DNA of 35,793 nt from Chitinophaga pinensis (GTDB taxonomy: Bacteria; Bacteroidota; Bacteroidia; NS11-12g; UBA9320). The position numbers were made by a program, and so were the translations under genes. The stretch's first letter is position 1; the number at the start of each line of letters is the position of its first letter. The notes under the pieces are model-generated. The model saw nothing but the letters and a program-made list of their open reading frames with translations. It ran no database searches and had not been told where the DNA came from. The stretch is from positions 1 through 35,793 of the forward strand of contig CAMDSC010000022.1 of assembly GCA_945907065.1 (NCBI GenBank), written 5' to 3'. Shown in pieces: positions 4,699 through 29,810 of the stretch.

Positions 4699-7600
4699 TT
4701 GAAAACCACCCTTACCCGCATATTACTGGTCGCTACGGCGGCCTTTGGTATTTCATTTATCTCCTCGGGCACCAACGATTTTTTGGTGTACGATTCTAAA
4801 TTATCTACAGATGATGATACCACAAAAAATGACACCTCAAAACTTAAATATCCATTAAGAGATAAAAAACCTTACGACTATAATTTCAAAAAAAGTCGTT
4901 TTGACCTTAAAGATCCTGATGTATTAAAGAAAAACACAGAATATGACCCCGGAAGCAATTCCTACATTGAGCATGAAAAATTAGGAAACCGTGATTTAAC
5001 ACCTCCTAAATCTAAGTCATTTTCTGATTATCTAAAAGAGCTAGAAGATAAGGAACAACAAGATTATTTCAAATCCAAAAGTAAAGCTACCAATTTTGTT
5101 CGTAGTTCAGGTTTAGTGCCCAGTACTGTAAATGTTCCTGATGTAGTTGATAAATTATTTGGTCCCGGATTAATAGATATTAAACCTTCAGGATCGGCTG
5201 AGGCCACATTTGGCGGCAGTTATAATGTTGTAAAAAACCCTGCAATCCCAGTAAGACAGCAAAAAACTGGAACTCCTGATTTTAAAATAAAAATGCAAGT
5301 GAGTGTGGCCGGACAAATTGGTGATAAGCTAAAAATAAATACTAATTACGATACCGATGCCACCTTCGAATTTGAAAACCAAATTAAACTTAATTGGGAA
5401 GGTCAGGAAGATGATATTCTTAAAAAGATTGAACTTGGAAATGTTAGTTTACCCCTCAATGGTAGCCTAATTCAGGCCGGACAAAGTTTATTCGGATTAA
5501 AAGCGCAAATGCAGTTTGGCAAATTAAAGGTTACCACCATTGCCACACAGCAAAGAGGACAAACTACCGAAACAGAAGTAAGTGGTGGAGCCCAAGTTAC
5601 AAAATTTGACATTCAGGCAAATAACTATGAAGCGAACAAACATTTTTTTGTTGGCCAATTTTTTAAAAACCAATATGACAATGCCTTAAGTTTACTTCCA
5701 ATAGTTCAATCTGGTGCATTTATCAATTATATTGAAGTTTGGGTAACCAATCGTAACAAATCATTTAATGACAACAGAAATTTGGTTCCTTTTGTAGATT
5801 TAGGTGAAACTGATCCATACAATCCTAAACTTAAAGATTCACCAGGAACGCCTGAACAAACTCATAATGAAGCAAATATTTTATGGAGTAAAATAATTTC
5901 AGACCCTTCACTAAATAGTAGTACTACAGTTATAGACGCTTTAAAAACGAAATATGCCAATTTGGATATGAAAGTTGGTATTGATTATAATATTTTGACC
6001 AATGCACGAAAGCTCACAGAACAGGAATACACTATTAATAAACAACTAGGTTACATTTCACTCAATCAGTCATTAAATAATGATGAAATATTGGCAGTTG
6101 CTTATGAATACACCTTTAATGGAAGGGTTTTCAAAGTTGGTCAATTATCGCGAGATAATCCTCCCGGACCAAGCGGAAGTGGAAATGATTTGGTGGTTAA
6201 AATGTTAAAATCTACCATTACAAATACTCGTTGGCCGCTGTGGGATTTGATGATGAAAAACATCTATTCGCTAAATACTTATAATGTACAAACACAAGAT
6301 TTTAGCCTTAATGTGGTTTATGCCGATGATAAATCTGCTGACTTAAATTACCTTCCTGTAAACCCTACTGAAACTAATATTTCCGAAAAACAACTTATTA
6401 CGGTTTTGAACCTTGATAGAATGAATAAACAAACGGAAGCCAAACCTGACGGGGTTTTTGACCTAATTGATGGAATAACTGTGAACATGATGAATGGTCG
6501 AATTATCTTTCCTGTAAGAGAACCTTTCGGACCATTTTTAAGAAGTAAATTTAAAGACCCTAACGGAAAAGATGCCAATTTTTATGCTTACGATGCGTTA
6601 TATGACTCCACTAAATGGTGGGCAGAACAGGATGTAACCCATAACAAATTTTTTCTGAGAGGAAGTTACCGAGGTAGCGCCACCAATGAAATTTCGTTAA
6701 ATGCTATTAACGTGCCACAAGGTTCTGTAAAAGTAACGGCCAACGGCGCTGCACTTACCGAAAATGTGGATTATACTGTAGATTATAACCTAGGAAGAGT
6801 TAGAATTCTTAATGAAGGAATTATTAATTCTGGTGCTGTTATTAAGGTTTCATCTGAAAGTAACTCTCTTTTTACATTGCAGCAAAAAACTCTTGTTGGG
6901 TCAAGATTTGATTACACACACTCCCGAAATTTATTACTGGGTGGTACCATAATGCACATGCGTGAACGACCCTTGACACCTAAGGTAGATATTGGGCAGG
7001 AACCAATATTAAATACGATAATTGGATTGGATGGAACCTGGAACAAAGAGTCAAGATTTATAACCAAACTGTTAGATAAGCTTCCATTTATTGAAACCAA
7101 AGAAAAATCAAGCGTGATGATAAGTGGTGAAGTTGCTAAAATATTTCCTCATAATGCTAAAACTATTGGTAATACAAAAGGTACTTCATTTTTAGATGAC
7201 TTTGAAGGGGCTGAAACCCCAATTGATTTAAAATATGTACTTAATTGGAAATTTGCACCGACGCCACAAGGGCAGAAAGATTTATTTCCCGAAACCGCAT
7301 CGGATTCTACCAATGCTTTCAAGCGGGCTAAAATTAATTTTCATACCATAGATCAAACTTTTTCGGGAAGTAATAAAAAATATATTCCTGATTATATAAC
7401 CGGAAACGACCAATCCCATCCATTTGTAAGAACTTGGGGTTTGAAGGAAGTTTTTCCTCAGTTAAATATTCAGATGCAGCAAATAAACCAATTGACCACT
7501 TTGGATTTGGTTTATAATCCTAAAAAACGAGGTATTTATAACTACAATCCTTCGGCTAGTGATTTTAATCCTGACGGAACATTTAGCCGGCCAAAAGAAT

Positions 7601-10600
7601 CGTGGGGAGGAATAGCCAGAAAAATTGAAACCAACGATTTTGAAGCCGCCAATATTGATTATATCGAATTTTGGATGATGGATCCCTATTGTTTATTAAC
7701 AGATAGAACCTCATCCAATAAGGGGCAACTTTATATAAATGTAGGCAGTATTTCTGAAGACCTAAATGCTGATAACCGCAGGGCTGTAGAAAATGGATTA
7801 CCCAAAGATGGCTCCTATTCAGGACTCGATACAACTCGGTATGGACTTATACCTCAGGTAGCACCTCAGATTCAAGCTTTTGATAACGATCCTAACTCAA
7901 GACCCAATCAAGACAAAGGATTGGACGGATTAAATGACAATGAGGAACGTACTTTTTACAAGGGATATTTAGAGACTTTAAAAACCAATTATGGCGCTGG
8001 CAGTACCATTTATAATAATGCATTAAACGACCCAAGTTCAGATAACTTTCAGCACTATTTTGATGCAGGATATGATGGAATTAAACAAAGTATTTTAGGA
8101 AGATATGAAGCCTATAACGGTATGGAAGGTAATTCTAATTTAGGAACTTTATCTACAGGACAACCAAAGTCGGCAAGCATATTTCCAGATGATGAAGATT
8201 TAAACAGGGATCAAACAATGAACTTTAACGAAGAGTATTTTCAATATAAAATTGATATATCAAAAAATGCTTTTAATGTGGGTTCTAATTTTGTGACAGA
8301 CTCAATTGTTACAGTGCCCAACTATATTGATGGAAGTAATTTCCCTAAAACCATTACTTGGTATCAGTTTAAAGTACCAATCAGACAATACGAGAAAAAA
8401 GTAGGAGGCATTCAGGATTTTAAATCCATACGTTTTATGCGATTGTTTTTAAAAGGATTTGATGACAGTTTAGTTTGCCGATTTGGACAAATGCAATTGG
8501 TTAGAGCCGATTGGAGACGTTATCTAAAAAATCTTAATTTTCCTCCGGGAGTTGGCCCTAATGTTGACCCTAATGATCAAACAGAATTTACAGTATCGGC
8601 CGTAAATATTGAAAAAAATAGTCAAAGAGTTCCAGTACCTTATATTGTTCCTCCTGGCATAGTTCGCGAAACCGATCCTACCCAGCAAAATAATGTTCAA
8701 ATGAATGAACAGGCACTTTCTTTAAGAGTTTGTAAACTTAAAAAAGGAGATTCAAGAGCTGCTTATAAAACCTTAAATTTTGATATACGGAACTATAAAA
8801 AAATGAAAATGTTTATACATGCTGAAGGTAATGATGTGGCAGATGATGATGTAAGAGCATTTATAAGAATAGGGACCGACCTTGAACGAAACTATTATCA
8901 ATTAGAAATACCTTTAAAAATAACACAACCCGGCACCCGAGATCCTTGGGCAGTTTGGCCTCAGGCCAATGAGATGAATATCAATTTAGAAGACTTTCAA
9001 GCAGTTAAATTGGAAAGAAATAAATATACTACGGATATTACAGCATATTTTGAAAAAACATTAGACAATGGAAATGTAATTTCAGTGGTTGGCCAACCCG
9101 ATTTAAGCAATGTGAGAACGATAATGCTGGGCATAAAAAATCCTCTCGAAAAAAACAATAACGAAATTTGCCCAGAGGTATGGTTTAACGAACTTCGACT
9201 TGAAGATTTTGTAAATAATGGTGGCTATGCTGCCAATGCACGAATTGTTGCAAATTTGGCTGATTTTGGCAAGCTAAATATCACAGGAAGCTATTCTTCA
9301 ATTGGGTTTGGTGGGGTAGATAAGAGACTTAATCAACGAAGTTTGAATGAAACTATTACTTACGATATTCAATCCAGTTTTGAGTTAGGTAAATTTTTCC
9401 CAATTCGAACAGGCATAACAATTCCATTTTTCATTGGGTATAATGAAAATATTATTAACCCTAAATATTACCCTCTTAACCCGGATGTTTTATTAAAAAC
9501 AGCGATAAAATCAGCACAATCAAAAGCTGAAGAAAAAACTATTAAAGAAAATGCCCAAGATTTTACCTCGCGATATAGCTATAATTTTACCAATGTTAAA
9601 AAGAATAAAGTAGGGGGAGGTAAAGCTCATATTTATGATATTGAAAATTTTAATGTTAGTTATAGTTATCAAAAAATATTTAGGCGAAACCAAATCATTC
9701 AAGAAAATTTAGCCGAAACCTATAGGGCTAGCGTTGGTTATAATTTTAGTCAGGCACCCAAACCATGGAAACCTTTCAAAAAAATTAAGACCAAAGCATT
9801 AACCCCAATTACAGGTTTTGGATTGTTCTTTGTTCCCCAAAGCATAACCATGCGATTTGATGTGGACCGACGGTATTCTGAATTACAAAACCGAAATAAT
9901 GATGATTTTAAATCCATTGTTCCAAGATTGTATGATAAAACATTTCTGCTTACAAGAGTATATGGGGTAAACTATAATCTTACCAATAATATTAAACTTG
10001 ATTATAATGCTACACTTAATGCACGAGTTGAAGAACCTACAAATGCCTTAAATACCCAAGAAAAAAAGGATACCATGTGGAATAATTTTAAAGCTATGGG
10101 TAAGCCAAATGATTTCAATCAGGTGATTAATGTTACTTATAATATGCCTTTAAGTAAAATTAAACTGTTAAATTGGATTGTTATTTCAGGCCGATATACC
10201 GGTAGTTATAATTGGCGAACCGCACCACTTGCCGCCCCGGTAATGGGAAATACCATTCAAAATTCGCAAACTATCGGTGGAAATGGTCAGTTTAATTTTT
10301 CCTCTTTCTATAATAAATTTCCTCTTCTTAAAAAAGCCAATATGCCCAAAGTACCAGGCTCTGCCAAAAAGAAAAAGTATGACGAGGAGGAAACTACTCC
10401 AAAAAGCAAAGAAGATAAAAAGAAAAAAGACTTTGAAATTTCTAAACCTTCAAGAGTTTCTCTTAAGTTTATTACCATGCTAAAGCAGATTTCGATAGAC
10501 TTGAGTTCGACCAATGGAACTACTTTACCAGGCTATAAACGTGGTTTGGATTATTTAGGAATAAACGATAAATACAAAACCCCAGGTCTACCTTTTATTG

Positions 10601-11835
10601 CAGGATTTCAAGATCCAAAGGTTAGATATAAGCTAGCTGAAGGTGGTCATTTATCTCAAAATCCATTACAAATTAACCGTTACATACAATTAGAAGGACT
10701 TGAAATAAAAGGAACCGGAACCTTAGAGCCATTTGATGGCTTTAGGATAAATCTTAATTTTGAACGACGTTTTTCTTTAACTACGTCAAGCACATTTCGA
10801 TTTGATACACTCACCAATAGTTTTATGGACCAAGGATATATGGAAGCCGGAATGTTCAGTATGTCTACCATTACTTGGAAAACTGCTTTTGAAAAATATG
10901 ATGATAAATTCCAATCGGATGCTTATGACCAATTTCAAAAAAACAGACGAGTGATGGCTGAAAAAGTGCAGGTAGAAGAATTAAATAAAGATATTTGGAA
11001 ATCTAAAAACTATGCTAACTATATTGGTTTGCTCGACCCAACATCAAGATACCCTCTAGGAATTGACAGCAACCATCAGGATGTATTAATGTTTGCTTTC
11101 ATGGCAGCCTATCAAGGCAAAGATGCCAAGAATTACAAACTTGATAGATTCCCGTTAATACCACTTCCTTCATGGCGCATTTCATGGAATGGATTGAGCA
11201 ATTTGGAACTTGTGAAAAAAGTATTTTCAAATATTACTATAAGTCATGCTTACAGTTCAAGCACATCCATTGGTAATTTTAATACAAGTGCCAATTATGG
11301 ATTGGATACTTTAACAAAAGGGAAAAATCTTACACCTCAATACCAGTTTACTACCTTGACTATTATGGAACGGCTAAGTCCATTAATAAAAATTGATATG
11401 ACTTTTAAAAGTGGTTTAACTTTAAACTTTGAAATAAAAACCGATCGTTCTTTAAATTTAACAACCAGTTATAAAATTAATGAAATTCATAATAAGGAAT
11501 ATGTATTAGGAACGGGATATCGTAAGTCAGGAGTTATTCTTCCGTTTAAAATAAACGGGAGAAAACCAATGTTCAAAAACGATTTGGATTTCAGAATGGA
11601 CTTTTCAATACGCGATGGATATACCATTACACGAGATATAAATTCAAATATTACTCCATCGGCTAATGCCGGAATGAGATCAATATCTATTCGACCTACA
11701 CTTAATTACAATATTACCGATAATCTTAATTTTAGAGCTTTTTATAACCGCAACGTTAATAAACCTAAAACCACTCTATCTTTTCCTACTGCACTTACAA
11801 ATTTTGGAATTTCATTAAGATATACGCTTCAATAA
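4699..11835 (+). CDS. sprA: T9SS outer-membrane translocon SprA (Sov)
   Basis: SprA is the giant beta-barrel that forms the protein-conducting channel of the type IX secretion system and, in gliding species, is needed for motility. At 2378 residues it has the family's usual size. Visible features are an N-terminal signal sequence (residues ~1-22), an early plug/periplasmic region with SGSAEATFGGSYN, family segments such as TSFLDDFEGAETPIDL and KGLDGLNDNEE, and long alternating beta-strand repeats to the C-terminal aromatic end (SLRYTLQ), as in a barrel. A Lys/Glu-rich stretch near residues 1888-1916 looks like a surface loop. The start is TTG 4699: an in-frame TAG at 4693 excludes anything longer. 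It follows ruvA by 68 bases. Its substrates are probably the sorting-domain proteins elsewhere in this window. Family certain; motility cannot be judged from this gene alone. Confidence 0.97.
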   Translation: MKTTLTRILLVATAAFGISFISSGTNDFLVYDSKLSTDDDTTKNDTSKLKYPLRDKKPYDYNFKKSRFDLKDPDVLKKNTEYDPGSNSYIEHEKLGNRDLTPPKSKSFSDYLKELEDKEQQDYFKSKSKATNFVRSSGLVPSTVNVPDVVDKLFGPGLIDIKPSGSAEATFGGSYNVVKNPAIPVRQQKTGTPDFKIKMQVSVAGQIGDKLKINTNYDTDATFEFENQIKLNWEGQEDDILKKIELGNVSLPLNGSLIQAGQSLFGLKAQMQFGKLKVTTIATQQRGQTTETEVSGGAQVTKFDIQANNYEANKHFFVGQFFKNQYDNALSLLPIVQSGAFINYIEVWVTNRNKSFNDNRNLVPFVDLGETDPYNPKLKDSPGTPEQTHNEANILWSKIISDPSLNSSTTVIDALKTKYANLDMKVGIDYNILTNARKLTEQEYTINKQLGYISLNQSLNNDEILAVAYEYTFNGRVFKVGQLSRDNPPGPSGSGNDLVVKMLKSTITNTRWPLWDLMMKNIYSLNTYNVQTQDFSLNVVYADDKSADLNYLPVNPTETNISEKQLITVLNLDRMNKQTEAKPDGVFDLIDGITVNMMNGRIIFPVREPFGPFLRSKFKDPNGKDANFYAYDALYDSTKWWAEQDVTHNKFFLRGSYRGSATNEISLNAINVPQGSVKVTANGAALTENVDYTVDYNLGRVRILNEGIINSGAVIKVSSESNSLFTLQQKTLVGSRFDYTHSRNLLLGGTIMHMRERPLTPKVDIGQEPILNTIIGLDGTWNKESRFITKLLDKLPFIETKEKSSVMISGEVAKIFPHNAKTIGNTKGTSFLDDFEGAETPIDLKYVLNWKFAPTPQGQKDLFPETASDSTNAFKRAKINFHTIDQTFSGSNKKYIPDYITGNDQSHPFVRTWGLKEVFPQLNIQMQQINQLTTLDLVYNPKKRGIYNYNPSASDFNPDGTFSRPKESWGGIARKIETNDFEAANIDYIEFWMMDPYCLLTDRTSSNKGQLYINVGSISEDLNADNRRAVENGLPKDGSYSGLDTTRYGLIPQVAPQIQAFDNDPNSRPNQDKGLDGLNDNEERTFYKGYLETLKTNYGAGSTIYNNALNDPSSDNFQHYFDAGYDGIKQSILGRYEAYNGMEGNSNLGTLSTGQPKSASIFPDDEDLNRDQTMNFNEEYFQYKIDISKNAFNVGSNFVTDSIVTVPNYIDGSNFPKTITWYQFKVPIRQYEKKVGGIQDFKSIRFMRLFLKGFDDSLVCRFGQMQLVRADWRRYLKNLNFPPGVGPNVDPNDQTEFTVSAVNIEKNSQRVPVPYIVPPGIVRETDPTQQNNVQMNEQALSLRVCKLKKGDSRAAYKTLNFDIRNYKKMKMFIHAEGNDVADDDVRAFIRIGTDLERNYYQLEIPLKITQPGTRDPWAVWPQANEMNINLEDFQAVKLERNKYTTDITAYFEKTLDNGNVISVVGQPDLSNVRTIMLGIKNPLEKNNNEICPEVWFNELRLEDFVNNGGYAANARIVANLADFGKLNITGSYSSIGFGGVDKRLNQRSLNETITYDIQSSFELGKFFPIRTGITIPFFIGYNENIINPKYYPLNPDVLLKTAIKSAQSKAEEKTIKENAQDFTSRYSYNFTNVKKNKVGGGKAHIYDIENFNVSYSYQKIFRRNQIIQENLAETYRASVGYNFSQAPKPWKPFKKIKTKALTPITGFGLFFVPQSITMRFDVDRRYSELQNRNNDDFKSIVPRLYDKTFLLTRVYGVNYNLTNNIKLDYNATLNARVEEPTNALNTQEKKDTMWNNFKAMGKPNDFNQVINVTYNMPLSKIKLLNWIVISGRYTGSYNWRTAPLAAPVMGNTIQNSQTIGGNGQFNFSSFYNKFPLLKKANMPKVPGSAKKKKYDEEETTPKSKEDKKKKDFEISKPSRVSLKFITMLKQISIDLSSTNGTTLPGYKRGLDYLGINDKYKTPGLPFIAGFQDPKVRYKLAEGGHLSQNPLQINRYIQLEGLEIKGTGTLEPFDGFRINLNFERRFSLTTSSTFRFDTLTNSFMDQGYMEAGMFSMSTITWKTAFEKYDDKFQSDAYDQFQKNRRVMAEKVQVEELNKDIWKSKNYANYIGLLDPTSRYPLGIDSNHQDVLMFAFMAAYQGKDAKNYKLDRFPLIPLPSWRISWNGLSNLELVKKVFSNITISHAYSSSTSIGNFNTSANYGLDTLTKGKNLTPQYQFTTLTIMERLSPLIKIDMTFKSGLTLNFEIKTDRSLNLTTSYKINEIHNKEYVLGTGYRKSGVILPFKINGRKPMFKNDLDFRMDFSIRDGYTITRDINSNITPSANAGMRSISIRPTLNYNITDNLNFRAFYNRNVNKPKTTLSFPTALTNFGISLRYTLQ

Positions 11836-19787: not shown

Positions 19788-20684
19788 ATGCAGCGTACGG
19801 AAAACTTTAGTAAAGATGAAAAAATCGCAATTTATACTGGTAAAAAATTTAAACTCAATACCCTAAAAACCAATTATACCGGAGGTTTTAAATCAGAGAA
19901 AGCAGCCGAACAAAAACTAAAGGCAGATATTGAAAATCTATCCAATCTTCAAGAAAAACTTTTTGCAAGTGATAATCACGGTGTTCTTATAATTATTCAG
20001 GCAATGGATGCCGCAGGTAAGGACAGTACTATTGAGCATGTGCTTAAAGGCATAAATCCTCAAGGGTGCAACATCACTTCTTTCAAGCGGCCTTCTGATA
20101 AAGAATTAAGTCACGATTTTTTATGGCGTACCTCCAATGCACTTCCTGAGAGAGGAATGATTGGAATTTTCAACCGTTCGTAGTATGAAGAGGTATTAGT
20201 AACCAAAGTTCATCCTGAAATAATACTTCAACAATCCATACCTGGAATTAATAAATTAAAACATATTGATTCTGATTTTTGGAAAAAACGCTATCAGTCT
20301 ATTAGAGAACACGAAAAACACCTTGTTGAAAATGGCTATATAATCCTTAAATTTTTCTTAAACGTTTCAAAAGAAGAACAAAAAAAACGCTTTTTGGAAC
20401 GAATCAACAATCCTTCAAAAAACTGGAAATTTCAATTTGGAGATATAAAAGAACGTGGGTTTTGGGATAAATATATGCAAGCCTATGAAAAAGCAATTGC
20501 GGAAACTTGCACACCAAAATCGCCATGGTTTGTAATTCCGGCTGATAATAAATGGTTTATGCAAACGGTAGTCTGTGATATTATACTAAACACCTTGCAA
20601 GAAATGAATTTAAAATTTCCTGAGCCAACTGCTGAAGCAATGCAACAATTAGCAGAGGCTAAAAATATTTTGTTAACCTCATAA
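19788..20684 (+). pseudogene. ppk2: Polyphosphate kinase 2 family, interrupted by an in-frame TAG
   Basis: PPK2 enzymes transfer phosphate between polyphosphate and nucleotides. The frame codes for 298 codons: an N-terminal helix region, a P-loop in QAMDAAGKDST (residues 71-81), SFKRPSDKELSHDFLWR, the Walker B segment GIFNRS, then, after a TAG at codon 132 (20181-20183), the remaining lid and C-terminal parts (YEEVLVTKVHPE, WKFQFGDIKERGFWDKY, IPADNKWFM). Family members read NRSYYEEVL here, so the TAG replaces a Tyr codon by one base change. Everything downstream stays in frame and conserved. The lesion is thus recent, an assembly error, or suppressed; taken at face value, the 131-residue product would lack half the fold. 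An outer-membrane barrel gene follows after 18 bases. Confidence 0.88.
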
Positions 20685-24866: not shown

Positions 24867-24874
24867 TATATTTG
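24867..24874 (+). promoter_or_regulatory. Putative -7 promoter box of the tail-tube gene
   Basis: TATATTTG matches TAnnTTTG and ends 13 bases before ATG 24888. It supports ATG 24888, and with it the N-terminal membrane segment, as the real start instead of the internal ATG at 24987. Confidence 0.5.
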
Positions 24875-24887
24875 TTATTATTTTACA

Positions 24888-25415
24888 ATGTTTCATCTAT
24901 TCATAATATTAGTAGTTTGTATATTTCTAATACTATTTGGAATATTAGTAATCCTTATTTTTCTCATCTATAAACACTATAAAAACATGTCAAATTATCC
25001 ATTAGCAGCTTTCCATTTTAAAGTAGAATGGGGCGGCACTCGTATCGGTTTTACCGAAGTTTCAGGTTTAGATATTTTTTTTGAACCTATTCAATATAGG
25101 GAAGGAAACTCACCAGAATATACCTCCCAAAAAATGCCAGGAATTGTAAAATTTAATAATATTATTTTAAAAAGAGGAATTTTGGTAGGTGACAATGATT
25201 TTTTTAAATGGATGAATACAATAAAATTAAACACTGTTGAACGCAGGGATATCACTATTAATTTGCTAAATGAAAATCATGAACCGGTTTTGACATGGAA
25301 GGTAAAAAATGCCTTTCCAGTTCGGTATTCAGGCCCAATATTAAATGCAAACTCAAATAGAGCCGCTATAGAGGAACTTGAAATTGCTCATGAAGGTTTT
25401 AGTGTAGCTGATTAG
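24888..25415 (+). CDS. Contractile-injection tail-tube (gp19-like) protein with N-terminal membrane helix
   Basis: Residues 34-175 are a complete tail-tube protein of the T4 gp19 / extracellular contractile injection system (eCIS) type: MSNYPLAAFHFKVEWGG, FTEVSGLDIFFEPIQYREG, NNIILKRGIL, RRDITINLLNENHEPVLTWK, NAFPVRYSGP, and AIEELEIAHEGF. Normally such proteins stack as rings forming the inner tube and begin at the equivalent of Met34. Here 33 residues precede it, 28 of them an almost purely hydrophobic helix followed by YKHYKN, i.e. a membrane anchor predicted to leave the tube domain on the cytoplasmic side. A promoter box sits before ATG 24888, so the extension is likely expressed. No sheath, baseplate, spike or other tube genes are nearby; only a degenerate eCIS-type AAA+ gene, convergent and seven bases away. 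Either a remnant or a repurposed pair. Confidence 0.85.
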   Translation: MFHLFIILVVCIFLILFGILVILIFLIYKHYKNMSNYPLAAFHFKVEWGGTRIGFTEVSGLDIFFEPIQYREGNSPEYTSQKMPGIVKFNNIILKRGILVGDNDFFKWMNTIKLNTVERRDITINLLNENHEPVLTWKVKNAFPVRYSGPILNANSNRAAIEELEIAHEGFSVAD

Positions 25416-25421
25416 TAATTT

Positions 25422-25946
25422 TTAACTTTTTATAATTACCTCCTCTTTTGGAAATCGAATTATTATATCAAATTTATTGAGGATATGTTCCGAAATTGTT
25501 GACTTATTATTAAACCTAAAAATAATTAAACCTTGGTAGGTTTGGACTTTTTGTAAAAGATAAGACACTTCCTGATTGGCATATTTATCATGGGCATCTT
25601 TAATTTCTGTTCTTTTGCCAAACAAAGCATCCGCTTCATCAAAAAATAAAATCCAACCTTTATTTTCAGATTTTTTAAAAACCTTTTCCAGATTTTTTTC
25701 GGTTTCGCCAATATACTTTGACACCACTTGCGAAAGGTCAATTCTATAAACTTCGCGGTGATGTTCTTTACCTAATAAAGTTGCTACTTTATTAGACGTT
25801 TGTTTTCCTTGCTCATAAAAAAGACTGATAAAAACTGATTTTTGTTTTGTTATATCTTTCTTACTAACCTTTTTTTCTAACCAATTATTTATTTGAACAA
25901 TCCCGTTTTGGGCAACCTTTGTTAAGCTTAAACCTTTAGTTACCAT
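25422..25946 (-). CDS. Degenerate eCIS-type AAA+ protein (Walker A and arginine fingers lost)
   Basis: A 174-residue AAA+ core of the type that accompanies contractile injection systems: YRIDLSQVVSKYIGETEKNLEKVF, intact Walker B ILFFDEADALFG (residues 99-110, Asp103/Glu104), KRTEIKDAHDKYANQEVSYLL, and NNKS at sensor 1. Where relatives have GPPGTGKT, this protein has LFYEQGKQTSNK (residues 42-53): the P-loop Lys/Thr are gone. Where they end with two arginine fingers (FTRRF), it has ILNKFD. It lacks the long N-terminal region of eCIS ATPases. ATP binding and hydrolysis are therefore unlikely, yet the frame is intact and the rest well conserved, which argues for a scaffold-like pseudoenzyme over decay. 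Its stop faces that of the tail-tube gene with six bases between. Confidence 0.8.
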   Translation of the reverse strand: MVTKGLSLTKVAQNGIVQINNWLEKKVSKKDITKQKSVFISLFYEQGKQTSNKVATLLGKEHHREVYRIDLSQVVSKYIGETEKNLEKVFKKSENKGWILFFDEADALFGKRTEIKDAHDKYANQEVSYLLQKVQTYQGLIIFRFNNKSTISEHILNKFDIIIRFPKEEVIIKS

Positions 25947-25987: not shown

Positions 25988-27673
25988 TTAGTGCATTACT
26001 TCAAGCTTTTTAACAATTTTATTCTTATTAATGGAAATAAAATAAAGACCATTTTTTACATCAGATAAATTCAAAGTATAATTTTTGGACTTCAAATTTT
26101 TAGCCTCCATCACAATTTCACCGGTTATTGAATACAAAACCAAAGAATTTATTTCAATCAAACCTTTACTAATTTCAATATCAAGCAAATTATTTACAGG
26201 GTTTGGAAACACCTTTATACTTTCTGAGTTTTCTAATTTATTAATGTCTGCGACTGGAAGTTCACAGAAAAAAGTATCGGGATTAAGTTCCATAAAACCC
26301 TTAGGAGATAAATTTTTTCCTGAAAAAGCTGGATGATTGAAAGCATACCTGTTTACCCGAAACGTATTGTTTTCTGAAGGATTTAAACTAGTGTCCCCTT
26401 GTTTTACCTTAACGCCCAATTTTAAAGGAGTAACATATTCCCAAACTATTTCCTCGGTAGGGGTAATTTCAAATGTATAGCCTTTTTGTGCTGAACAAAT
26501 TAGTGTATTTCCATTATCCAAACGCTGAACACTAGACAATCCTGATGAATACATGGAAGTAGAATCTGGACGTTTGTAAGTCCATGAAAAATTATTTGGT
26601 AAAAATTTATTTCCACTCTTTTGAAATGCCCACATGTAGGTATCAAATGCCGGCTGAAAAATATTGACTGTAGAATAGTTTGAACCAACACGATTATTAA
26701 AAACCATTAATTTTCCAAAATCTCTATCCCCCCAATTTTTGCCCATCCAATGTATATCGTGGGGGAAAAATAATTTTTGGTCAGCCACTGTTCCTGAATT
26801 ATATGCAGCCGGATTGCCCCATCGGTAAATCAAGTCTCCTCCCTTTTTACCAAAACCCCCATTTCCTGTTGCCGCTTGAGCCGTTGTTGTGCTATGATCT
26901 ATAACCCAAATTTCATTAAAACTTGGCGAACTAACTACTATTTGGTCAAATCCATAATTATAACTTATAGCATTTAAAAAAGCCCAGTTTTTTGCACTCG
27001 ATAAATTAGCATAATTTAAATCAACCTTTCCCGGAAAATCTTTAGGATTGCCATATCCTGGTTTTGTAGAATCATAATTTTGAACCACGTGGTCCCAAAG
27101 ATGCCATTCCCAAACAATAATAAATTTATCGGTTCCTACAGGTTTTACTTCAATTATTTTATCAGGCCAAATTTCATTGTTGGCTAAATAGGCCGGATTT
27201 CGACCTATACTAATAGCTTGCGCTTTGGTCTTTTTTTCCCAGCTAATCATCAAAATATTTCCATTAGGCATTGGCTCAATGTCATGATGAAGCCTATTGA
27301 ACGAGTCATTTAAAGTAAAAGTCCACAATAATTTATTGTCCCAATCTCGTTTTTCAACAGTACCTCCTCCTCCACCTGACCATATTGGACTGCCGGTTAC
27401 TTTTGCTGACCGTTTTGTTTTTAAAATAGAGCCATCATCTAATAAATAAACTGTATTCCCAGGTCTTAAATCGGCCGTATCTGCCCAGGTATGAACAATT
27501 CTACCACAATTGTCAAGTAAATAAACGTTGGGTTGCTCGTGAGGGTATAGTAAATTATAACCATTAAAGGTTTTGGAATTATCAGCAGATATAAGGCCTA
27601 CCGTGTGCTTTTGTGCCCAACTAAATTGGGTAAAAGCCGAAACTATTAGAGTGAGTATAAATTTATTATTCAT
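25988..27673 (-). CDS. Arylsulfotransferase-like beta-propeller with T9SS sorting domain
   Basis: A 561-residue secreted protein. The signal peptide (residues 1-20, ending FSWA) is followed by an ASST-type beta-propeller domain: YLLDNCGRIVHTW, RDWDNKLLWTFT, HHDIEPMPNGNIL (His129/His130), WEWHLWDHVVQ, NEIWVIDHSTT, IYRWGNP, and RLDNGNTLICSAQKG. Histidines in these motifs are where the family's catalytic and substrate-contacting residues lie, so sulfate transfer between phenols is possible but unproven. The last ~75 residues are a type A T9SS sorting domain (KVFPNPVNNLLDI, then NGLYFISI and a basic tail). The upstream gene is a longer paralogue 106 bases away, with the same domain order plus an Ig-like insert. 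Exported through SprA by inference. Confidence 0.85.
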   Translation of the reverse strand: MNNKFILTLIVSAFTQFSWAQKHTVGLISADNSKTFNGYNLLYPHEQPNVYLLDNCGRIVHTWADTADLRPGNTVYLLDDGSILKTKRSAKVTGSPIWSGGGGGTVEKRDWDNKLLWTFTLNDSFNRLHHDIEPMPNGNILMISWEKKTKAQAISIGRNPAYLANNEIWPDKIIEVKPVGTDKFIIVWEWHLWDHVVQNYDSTKPGYGNPKDFPGKVDLNYANLSSAKNWAFLNAISYNYGFDQIVVSSPSFNEIWVIDHSTTTAQAATGNGGFGKKGGDLIYRWGNPAAYNSGTVADQKLFFPHDIHWMGKNWGDRDFGKLMVFNNRVGSNYSTVNIFQPAFDTYMWAFQKSGNKFLPNNFSWTYKRPDSTSMYSSGLSSVQRLDNGNTLICSAQKGYTFEITPTEEIVWEYVTPLKLGVKVKQGDTSLNPSENNTFRVNRYAFNHPAFSGKNLSPKGFMELNPDTFFCELPVADINKLENSESIKVFPNPVNNLLDIEISKGLIEINSLVLYSITGEIVMEAKNLKSKNYTLNLSDVKNGLYFISINKNKIVKKLEVMH

Positions 27674-27779
27674 TGATTTTTAAGTTGACTATTTTAATAA
27701 ATAACTAGGTGAAAGAAACAGTATTTAATCAGACAGTTGACATAATTAATATTACCAATGAGATATAGCTGCATCAATT

Positions 27780-29810
27780 TTACTCCTTAACGATAAATTG
27801 AGAAAATTGTCCGTTTAATAATATTGAATAAATACCATCGGCAAATTCTGATAAGTCAATTTCTAATTCCTTATTGGTTTTTAATTTGGCAACACAATTA
27901 ATAATTTGACCTATACTGTTCAAAATCTGAACTTTTGGCTCTGTATTATCAAAAGGAATTTGAATAAAATCGTTAGTTGGGTTGGGATAAATCCCCTTTA
28001 ATTTAGGAGCATTCATATCAATTGAATTAAATGCTTTTACTGTATTAAACGCCCAATTTAATGAATCAAACGCAACCATTTCATTCCCAGTAGAATCTTT
28101 AAAACAACCTTTGTCAATTGAAATAGATATTCTGGAATTGTTAGAATAATTATTGGCCGGAGTTATTGAAACTATCTTTCCATTAACACTTATTTTAGAA
28201 TCACTTATCAAAATAGCTTCTTTAAACTGATTTTTTTCATAAATGGAAACATATCCTTTAGTTCCTTTAAATACTTTTTCGCTAAAGGTTACTGCAGTTG
28301 AAGCATTTATTGCCACATTGCCTGAACGATGAACAGGAAGAAAAGCTATAGGTTTAGGTGCAGTAATATCCGGAGATGTTAGAGAACATGAATAACTGTA
28401 AGAGTTTTTTTCAATTGGACTAGATGGGGTCATATTTTTGCCTTTAAAAGCATTGTATGATTCAGCATAGTATGTAATTCTAAAAACGCTGTTTCCACCA
28501 GCCTCGCCATCTGTACCTATTTCATCCTCGGCTGCCACAGGATTAATATATTCCCAAACCACGTTGTTTTTATCATCTAGTTCAAAAAACTTGCCAGGCA
28601 AACCAACACATACCAAAGTATTTCCATTTGATAATCTGCTGGCTCCTGATATAAAACCTGAAAAAAAGTTTTCAGGAATAGGATCTTTATAAATCCATTT
28701 CTGTGAAGATGGACCGTAAGGTAGTGTAGAGTTATAAACTCCTGCACTCATTATTGTTGGTGTTATAATTTCAACTGAAGAATGTGCTGGAAACCTACCA
28801 AGTCCGTTGTTAAAAATCATTATATCTCCTCCATCTTTATACCCTTTGGGAATCCAATAGGCATTGTGAGGAAGAAAAAATTTTTGATCCATTTTTGCCC
28901 CTTTATTGTAGGCTGCAGGATTGCCCCAACGGTATAAAATATCACCACCTTTACCGTATTTTCCACCTGAATGAGTGGCCGCTTCTTTTATGGTAGTACT
29001 ATGATCAAGTATCCAAACTTCACTTAAATTGTGACACGTAATTAATATTTGATCCAGTTCTTTATTATAATCTATGGCATTAATATGAATCCAATCGGCT
29101 GACTGGCTTGGTGCATAATTTATATTCATCAATTCTGGATGATTGCCTATAACGTTATAATCAGGTTTGGAAAAACTTGCATCCTGAATTATATGATCCC
29201 ACAAAGTCCATTGCCAAATAATTTGTGCTTCATTTGTTCCAATAGGTTTTATTTCGATTATCCGTTCACTATACAATTTTGTTCCTCCCATGGTGCCAGA
29301 TTTGCGACCCTTTGCTATTGCTTCACTCTCTGATTTTACATGTCTGGCTATCACAAGAATATTTCCATTATCCATAGGATAAATATCATGATGCTGCCCC
29401 AATGAATCATTTGAAATTATATAAGACCACACTACATTCCCGTCCCAATCAATTTTTTCAATAATTCCTCCATTTGCACCCGACCGAAAAAAAGTATCTT
29501 CAGAAATTCCTGTTCTTAATAAATTGCCATCAGGCAATAAATAAACTGACAGACCCGGACTATAATTGCTTTTCCAGCTATGCACCTGTTTCCCGCATTT
29601 ATCAATAAGGTAAGTTGTTTTGCAATACATGGGTGCAAATAAAATATAACCGGTTTCGGTACTTCCGGCCAAATGCTTGGTAACACCCAAGGTTTTTTGC
29701 TGGCCATAAAGCGCTGAATCAAATATATGAGAAACAAATAGTAAAGTTAAAAAGTAACGCAGAATAAAAGGAAGGGATAAATTAGATTTGATAGAAAAAG
29801 AATAATTCAT
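27780..29810 (-). CDS. Arylsulfotransferase-like propeller with Ig-like and T9SS sorting domains
   Basis: Paralogue of the following gene, 676 residues. Signal peptide ~1-36 (basic, then LPFILRYFLTLLFVSHIFDSALYG). The ASST propeller covers ~40-480: YLIDKCGKQVHSW, IDWDGNVVWSYI, GQHHDIYPMDNGNIL, WQWTLWDHIIQ, SEVWILDHSTT, YRWGNPAAYNKG and RLSNGNTLVC. Next comes an SbsA-type Ig-like domain (~488-600: SPDITAPKPIAFLPVHRSG, STAVTFSEKVFKG, ISISIDKGCFKDSTGNEM), then a type A sorting domain (KGIYPNPTNDFIQIPF to the end). The Ig-like domain is absent from the paralogue and probably extends the enzyme from the surface. Substrate not known. The divergent space to sucB is about 170 bases and holds no gene that I can see. 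Confidence 0.85.
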   Translation of the reverse strand: MNYSFSIKSNLSLPFILRYFLTLLFVSHIFDSALYGQQKTLGVTKHLAGSTETGYILFAPMYCKTTYLIDKCGKQVHSWKSNYSPGLSVYLLPDGNLLRTGISEDTFFRSGANGGIIEKIDWDGNVVWSYIISNDSLGQHHDIYPMDNGNILVIARHVKSESEAIAKGRKSGTMGGTKLYSERIIEIKPIGTNEAQIIWQWTLWDHIIQDASFSKPDYNVIGNHPELMNINYAPSQSADWIHINAIDYNKELDQILITCHNLSEVWILDHSTTIKEAATHSGGKYGKGGDILYRWGNPAAYNKGAKMDQKFFLPHNAYWIPKGYKDGGDIMIFNNGLGRFPAHSSVEIITPTIMSAGVYNSTLPYGPSSQKWIYKDPIPENFFSGFISGASRLSNGNTLVCVGLPGKFFELDDKNNVVWEYINPVAAEDEIGTDGEAGGNSVFRITYYAESYNAFKGKNMTPSSPIEKNSYSYSCSLTSPDITAPKPIAFLPVHRSGNVAINASTAVTFSEKVFKGTKGYVSIYEKNQFKEAILISDSKISVNGKIVSITPANNYSNNSRISISIDKGCFKDSTGNEMVAFDSLNWAFNTVKAFNSIDMNAPKLKGIYPNPTNDFIQIPFDNTEPKVQILNSIGQIINCVAKLKTNKELEIDLSEFADGIYSILLNGQFSQFIVKE

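Follow-up and report, generated by a model that had tools for sequence, protein, structure and literature searches.

A lone gene in the window, which is the whole stretch of 35,793 nucleotides analysed here and corresponds to the complete contig C22 of genome G000 (2.7 Mb, 99.9% complete; a freshwater member of the Bacteroidota), encodes an eCIS-type inner-tube protein with a conserved hydrophobic helix ahead of the tube core. This extension is a translated segment under purifying selection and is neither a UTR nor a product of chance. We infer, as the probable explanation on balance, that the protein is a domesticated inner-tube subunit, which would be anchored in the cytoplasmic membrane with its tube domain in the cytoplasm and would serve a non-injector that is free of baseplate and spike. 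In phage tails, T6SS, and eCIS, the tube is understood to be a needle that is built from soluble subunits and ejected.

The open reading frame encodes 175 aa and begins at an ATG, which is the first ATG/GTG/TTG past the preceding in-frame stop. PF06841 matches residues 41-171 (E=1e-46, 158.5 bits against a curated cut-off of 28.2) over profile positions 2-133 of 134. The solved tubes All3324 of the thylakoid CIS and Alg1 of AlgoCIS align with residues 34-173 and 36-173, respectively (E about 1e-56). An earlier note on this DNA had described the core from Met34 on as complete and conserved, and these end-to-end alignments agree with it. Judged by sequence, the protein belongs to the gp19 tube family (PF06841) and its core fold is secure; the AlphaFold2 model of the core is of low confidence (mean pLDDT 64, from a three-row alignment). 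The usual PF06841 architecture is a soluble subunit beginning at the N-loop, whereas here a conserved hydrophobic extension precedes the core; the soluble start is a trait of the known members and no condition of family membership. Forty-eight of the 58 positions conserved in soluble eCIS tubes (n=19) are unchanged in all three anchored tubes of the genus. Glu64, which is present in 19/19 soluble tubes, is replaced by Phe in all three, and the pattern near residues 156-158 is also altered. Most of the subunit interface has therefore probably been preserved, with changes at specific positions.

Table 1. Features of the tube locus and lone tube genes of genus g20. Coordinates without a locus prefix refer to the window.
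Feature	Position	Strand	Basis or remark
Motif TATATTTG, similar to a Bacteroidota -7 box, close upstream of the long start	24867..24874	+	also upstream of the G006 gene; weak
Putative membrane-anchored eCIS-type inner-tube protein, lone gene, 175 aa	24888..25415	+	ORF; PF06841; two congeners with the same architecture
N-terminal extension, residues 1-33: predicted hydrophobic TM helix at about residues 2-29, then basic/aromatic YKHYKN	24888..24986	+	selection tests; shuffles; AlphaFold2 helix
Tube core, gp19/Hcp-like fold, from the ancestral start Met34 (MSNYPL...)	24987..25412	+	PF06841; solved tubes; conserved positions
eCIS AAA ATPase fragment, 174 aa, neighbour of the tube gene	25422..25946	-	Walker A lost; Walker B (FFDEADALFG) kept; C-terminal lid region absent
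Lone tube of g20, genome G066	L050:9377-9961	+	hydrophobic N-terminus
Lone tube of g20, genome G079	L052:12016-12609	-	hydrophobic N-terminus
Lone tube of g20, genome G100	L017:1444-2058	+	hydrophobic N-terminus

The extension reads MFHLFIILVVCIFLILFGILVILIFLIYKHYKN. The almost purely hydrophobic run and the basic/aromatic residues behind it are as the earlier note had reported, and AlphaFold2 places a single helix over residues 2-32 (block pLDDT of 94, 97, and 82 over residues 1-30). The suggestion that such an open stretch is not expected by chance also holds. When the 99 nucleotides of the extension were subjected to 20,000 dinucleotide shuffles, 7% remained open and none was both open and equally hydrophobic, with the threshold set at a 19-residue Kyte-Doolittle mean of at least 3.5 (the observed extension reaches 3.73). 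Nowhere else in the window does a reading frame attain this threshold.

Relatives with the same extension, whose absence the earlier note had named as a refutation, were found in two congeners. The G006 protein is 82% identical over residues 1-174 and the G004 protein about 65-66% over residues 2-173. Since the same architecture occurs in two MAGs of other species, an assembly artefact is ruled out. The extension contains no stop and no internal indel in the three diverged species and evolves as a translated protein segment. Its dN and dS are 0.11 and 0.66 (Fisher p 1e-3), against 0.10 and 0.77 in the core. In codon alignments of the extension, pN and pS are 0.10 and 0.44 between G000 and G006 (Fisher p 1e-3) and 0.25 and 0.74 between G000 and G004 (p 2e-5), ratios close to those of the core. 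A chance or UTR origin is ruled out by these values together with the shuffles. Synonymous sites are near saturation against the third species. Despite this, the stretch F13-I19 and most of L23-K29 are invariant, and residues C11, F13-I19, V21, and L23-K29 of the putative TM helix show identity or near-identity across the three species. This conservation exceeds the needs of a generic anchor and suggests helix-helix or partner contacts.

The true start could instead be Met34, with the upstream hydrophobic frame being a T-rich leader. The soluble relatives in G055, Alg1, and All3324 begin at the equivalent Met, the ATG at 24987 has the A-rich upstream sequence usual for Bacteroidota starts, and Met34 is invariant in the three species of the genus with an anchored tube. 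However, non-synonymous differences per site in the extension are about 3 to 4 times fewer than synonymous ones, and neither its open frame in three diverged species nor the shuffles fit a leader. A start at Met34 only is strongly disfavoured, and we give this explanation hardly any weight. Met34, kept in all three species, may possibly act as a second start alongside Met1. The promoter box that had been placed upstream of the long start is present there and in G006. However, TAnnTTTG has 21 matches on the + strand of the window, so the box is weak evidence.

No charged residue precedes the helix, and K29, H30, and K32 follow it. According to the positive-inside rule, basic residues found only after the helix predict an N-out/C-in orientation with the tube core on the cytoplasmic face; this answers the call of the earlier note for a topology prediction. 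An extension acting as a cleaved signal peptide or a lipoprotein signal would instead export the tube domain to the periplasm. The N-terminus is indeed hydrophobic, and Cys11 is conserved and preceded by Val or Ala. However, the basic residues lie on the wrong side of the helix for such a signal, the hydrophobic run goes on for about 17 residues beyond Cys11, and no AxA-type site follows it, which makes export very unlikely.

The AAA fragment is the sole CIS-like neighbour of the tube gene. It is 50% identical to the eCIS AAA protein of G055, a genome of the same order, and has SLFYEQGKQTSNK where the FGPPGTGKT motif (Walker A) is expected. A truncated copy lies at the syntenic place in G004, after DUF5777, and the G004 tube gene is elsewhere; G006 has the tube and no AAA gene at the corresponding place. 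The genes upstream of the tube (DUF5777, YceI, and an OB-fold-like protein) are not CIS genes. Elsewhere in the window, two ORFs (19788-20183 and 20394-20684, + strand) are the halves of a split PPK2-like gene; in G006 the gene is intact, as one ORF of 298 aa at the same place (L046:4627-5523). A 2378-aa ORF (4699-11835, + strand) presumably encodes a T9SS/gliding protein resembling SprA. Downstream, two tandem related secreted ORFs of 561 and 676 aa occupy 25988-29810 (- strand) and have what we take to be an arylsulfotransferase-type look with a C-terminal sorting domain; G006 carries four ORFs of this kind at the same place (L046).

The other parts of an injection machine are scattered or were not found. 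In an eCIS gene cluster the sheath lies next to the tube, whereas the one sheath gene of G000, full-length with 449 aa, stands alone on contig C16 (C16:11525-12874). The lone sheath gene of G004 (L053:9347-10701, - strand, on C34) is broken by the loss of one nucleotide from a T6 run, and this may be a real frameshift, a slippage site, or an assembly error. No sheath was found in G006 with the G000 sheath or PF17482 as query, so that G000 and G004 have the tube, a sheath, and an AAA remnant, and G006 has the tube only. The gp25 baseplate protein (PF04965) had no match in G000, and the G055 homologue as query matched nothing in the genus. The VgrG-like spike (PF04717, Phage_base_V) had no match in any genome of the genus; it is present in 11 of the 108 genomes of the order, including G055. 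A concatenated query of the G055 cluster against the seven genus genomes matched AAA domains only, with no match for PAAR, VgrG, the CIS_tube initiator, or the Pvc16 cap. These searches for CIS parts were profile-based, and very divergent spike or baseplate proteins may escape them. Since sheath linkage, spike, and baseplate were looked for and not found, the protein, on its sequence context, is not part of an eCIS as defined. Among the searched parts of a T6SS-like docked CIS, baseplate (gp25) and spike were likewise not found. The earlier proposal of a membrane-anchored CIS tube with a new role, such as a ring or docking piece, thus stands as to the tube identity and the real extension. Its use for docking or as a ring in a functioning CIS, however, is not supported, given the missing gp25, spike, PAAR, CIS_tube, and Pvc16 matches and the sheath-less G006.

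The main rival explanation is a minimal device that is still contractile, in which an anchored tube ring docks a sheath-tube module in the manner of T6SS, from scattered genes and with a spike and baseplate that escape recognition. The G000 sheath is intact and 78% identical to that of G004, with a dN/dS of about 0.2, which indicates purifying selection. Such selection would be surprising for a sheath without a function, and it counts against domestication. Genus g20 belongs to another family of the order, and its genomes likewise combine a hydrophobic-N tube with lone sheath genes elsewhere, an AAA-domain protein, and no recognised spike (PF04717 had no match in them). However, neither spike, gp25, nor tube initiator was found in our genus, and G006 and the more distant G377 have an anchored tube and no sheath. 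The G004 sheath carries the deletion, the AAA copies lack the P-loop, and the G004 copy is truncated. Furthermore, the present gene is the only gp19-type tube gene in the 99.9% complete genome, so the anchor would sit on every tube subunit. We therefore regard a contractile device as unlikely, although it retains some real weight.

Alternatively, an eCIS may have decayed and left behind these genes, which would now be functionless. The scattering of the parts, the frameshifted sheath and truncated AAA of G004, and the P-loop-less AAA of G000 would fit decay, and G001, G002, G003, and G005 have neither tube nor sheath. However, the tube ORF is intact in three species, and dN is well under dS in extension and core alike. 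The sheath-less G006 branch is not clearly relaxed (N17:S14, against N12:S15 on the G000 branch), and a new, conserved anchor is unexpected of a fossil. This explanation is accordingly a distinctly unlikely one, below the contractile device.

Because no puncturing parts are recognised and G006 has no sheath, we favour a ring that is tethered to the membrane and has a role other than injection; the membrane ring of a dismantled, domesticated system is the most natural guess. In this view, a signal-anchor helix would have been added to a tube protein ahead of the ancestral start codon. Judging from hydrophobicity and charges, this helix may keep the protein inserted in the cytoplasmic membrane so that the N-terminus lies outside and the tube domain faces the cytoplasm. 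The conserved core suggests that the usual ring is still formed, and the likely product would then be a ring of tube subunits tethered by their helices to the inner face of the membrane. Because their N-terminal segment lies where one ring meets the next, tube subunits tethered in this way would be too constrained to extend into a long tube for ejection. The N-terminus contributes to ring-ring contacts in the tail tube of T5, and the N-loop of Afp1 contacts the cap (PMC8718954). If each subunit carries a helix at this site, one ring resting on the membrane would be a fitting arrangement. Neither a baseplate nor a spike is recognised as a partner of this product, and at least one species also has no sheath. 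Its role is therefore probably that of a membrane platform, a pore collar, or a decoy derived from an injection device, rather than that of an injector.

Known tubes share the core with this protein and differ from it in setting. Alg1 and All3324 (Cis1 of the Anabaena thylakoid CIS) have the same core end to end, and most conserved tube positions are kept here. However, both are soluble, start at the Met34 equivalent, and lie in full gene clusters, whereas the present protein has a predicted TM helix, the change of E64 to F, and a lone gene. G055 has a complete eCIS cluster, whose first tube lacks an extension and shares 62% identity with the core. That cluster holds two tubes, two sheaths, CIS_tube, a VgrG-like spike, PAAR, a gp25-like protein, a tape measure, AAA, and Pvc16 together. 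Phage-tail-like parts are also brought to a membrane by a hydrophobic segment or an accessory membrane protein in other systems. The anchor is Cis12/Cis13 in the thylakoid CIS (PMC8894136), CisA in the Streptomyces CIS (PMC12237407), and the separate membrane anchor Hbor_38620 in the haloarchaeal T6SS (PMC11566945). In these systems, however, a baseplate, tail-fibre, or separate membrane protein serves as the anchor and the rest of the machine is present, whereas here it would be the tube subunit itself. No description of a membrane-anchored, TM-bearing CIS tube was found in the open-access literature searched, an absence that is no proof. If the explanation is correct, a conserved integral-membrane tube protein that is sheath-less in one species would mean that parts of injection machines are convertible to resident membrane structures. 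One gene with no cluster would also be a simple test case for what a tube ring alone can do.

Similar proteins occur beyond the genus. Tube proteins turned up in 58 of 395 genomes in a class-wide PF06841 search, of the kind proposed in the earlier note. We examined 106 distinct tube reading frames, taken from the loci of the best matches and from the rows in which a long frame is open; seven of them carry a strongly hydrophobic segment at the N-terminus: three from this genus, three from g20, and one from G377. The lone g20 tube lies between enolase and truA in all three genomes of that genus. The G377 case is a single sequence, from a lone tube gene in a genome with no detectable sheath. In all seven, the start Met of the soluble relatives is retained directly after the helix. 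The selection test on the g20 extension was significant in one of three pairs and is suggestive of selection. In a tree of modest resolution (147 columns), the seven anchored tubes need at least three label changes, so independent gains of the hydrophobic N-terminus are likely; one gain with losses is a possible alternative. As a more tentative proposal, Bacteroidota may have turned CIS tubes into membrane-tethered rings on at least three occasions, with no baseplate and for a role other than injection, and perhaps with an additional soluble form that starts at the retained internal Met. A scan of genome contigs with extension-derived patterns matched only G006 and G004 and is not informative on the wider distribution, for which the class-wide PF06841 search is the basis. 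A close phage origin was rejected, as the best phage matches are 33% identical tubes of Streptomyces phages over residues 33-171 and none has the extension. Plasmid relatives were rejected as a source as well; they match the core only, the best at about 48% identity.

Lone tube genes with other N-termini were also seen. Further lone soluble tubes lie in genomes with no detectable sheath, near position 10000 of L174 (G160) and at L175:10403-10870 on the - strand (G377). The lone tube of G215 (L168:9206-9685, - strand) has a basic, amphipathic-looking N-terminal extension, MGLLKTILHCVKKTINRLMGNYPLS, which could be a peripheral membrane-binding helix.
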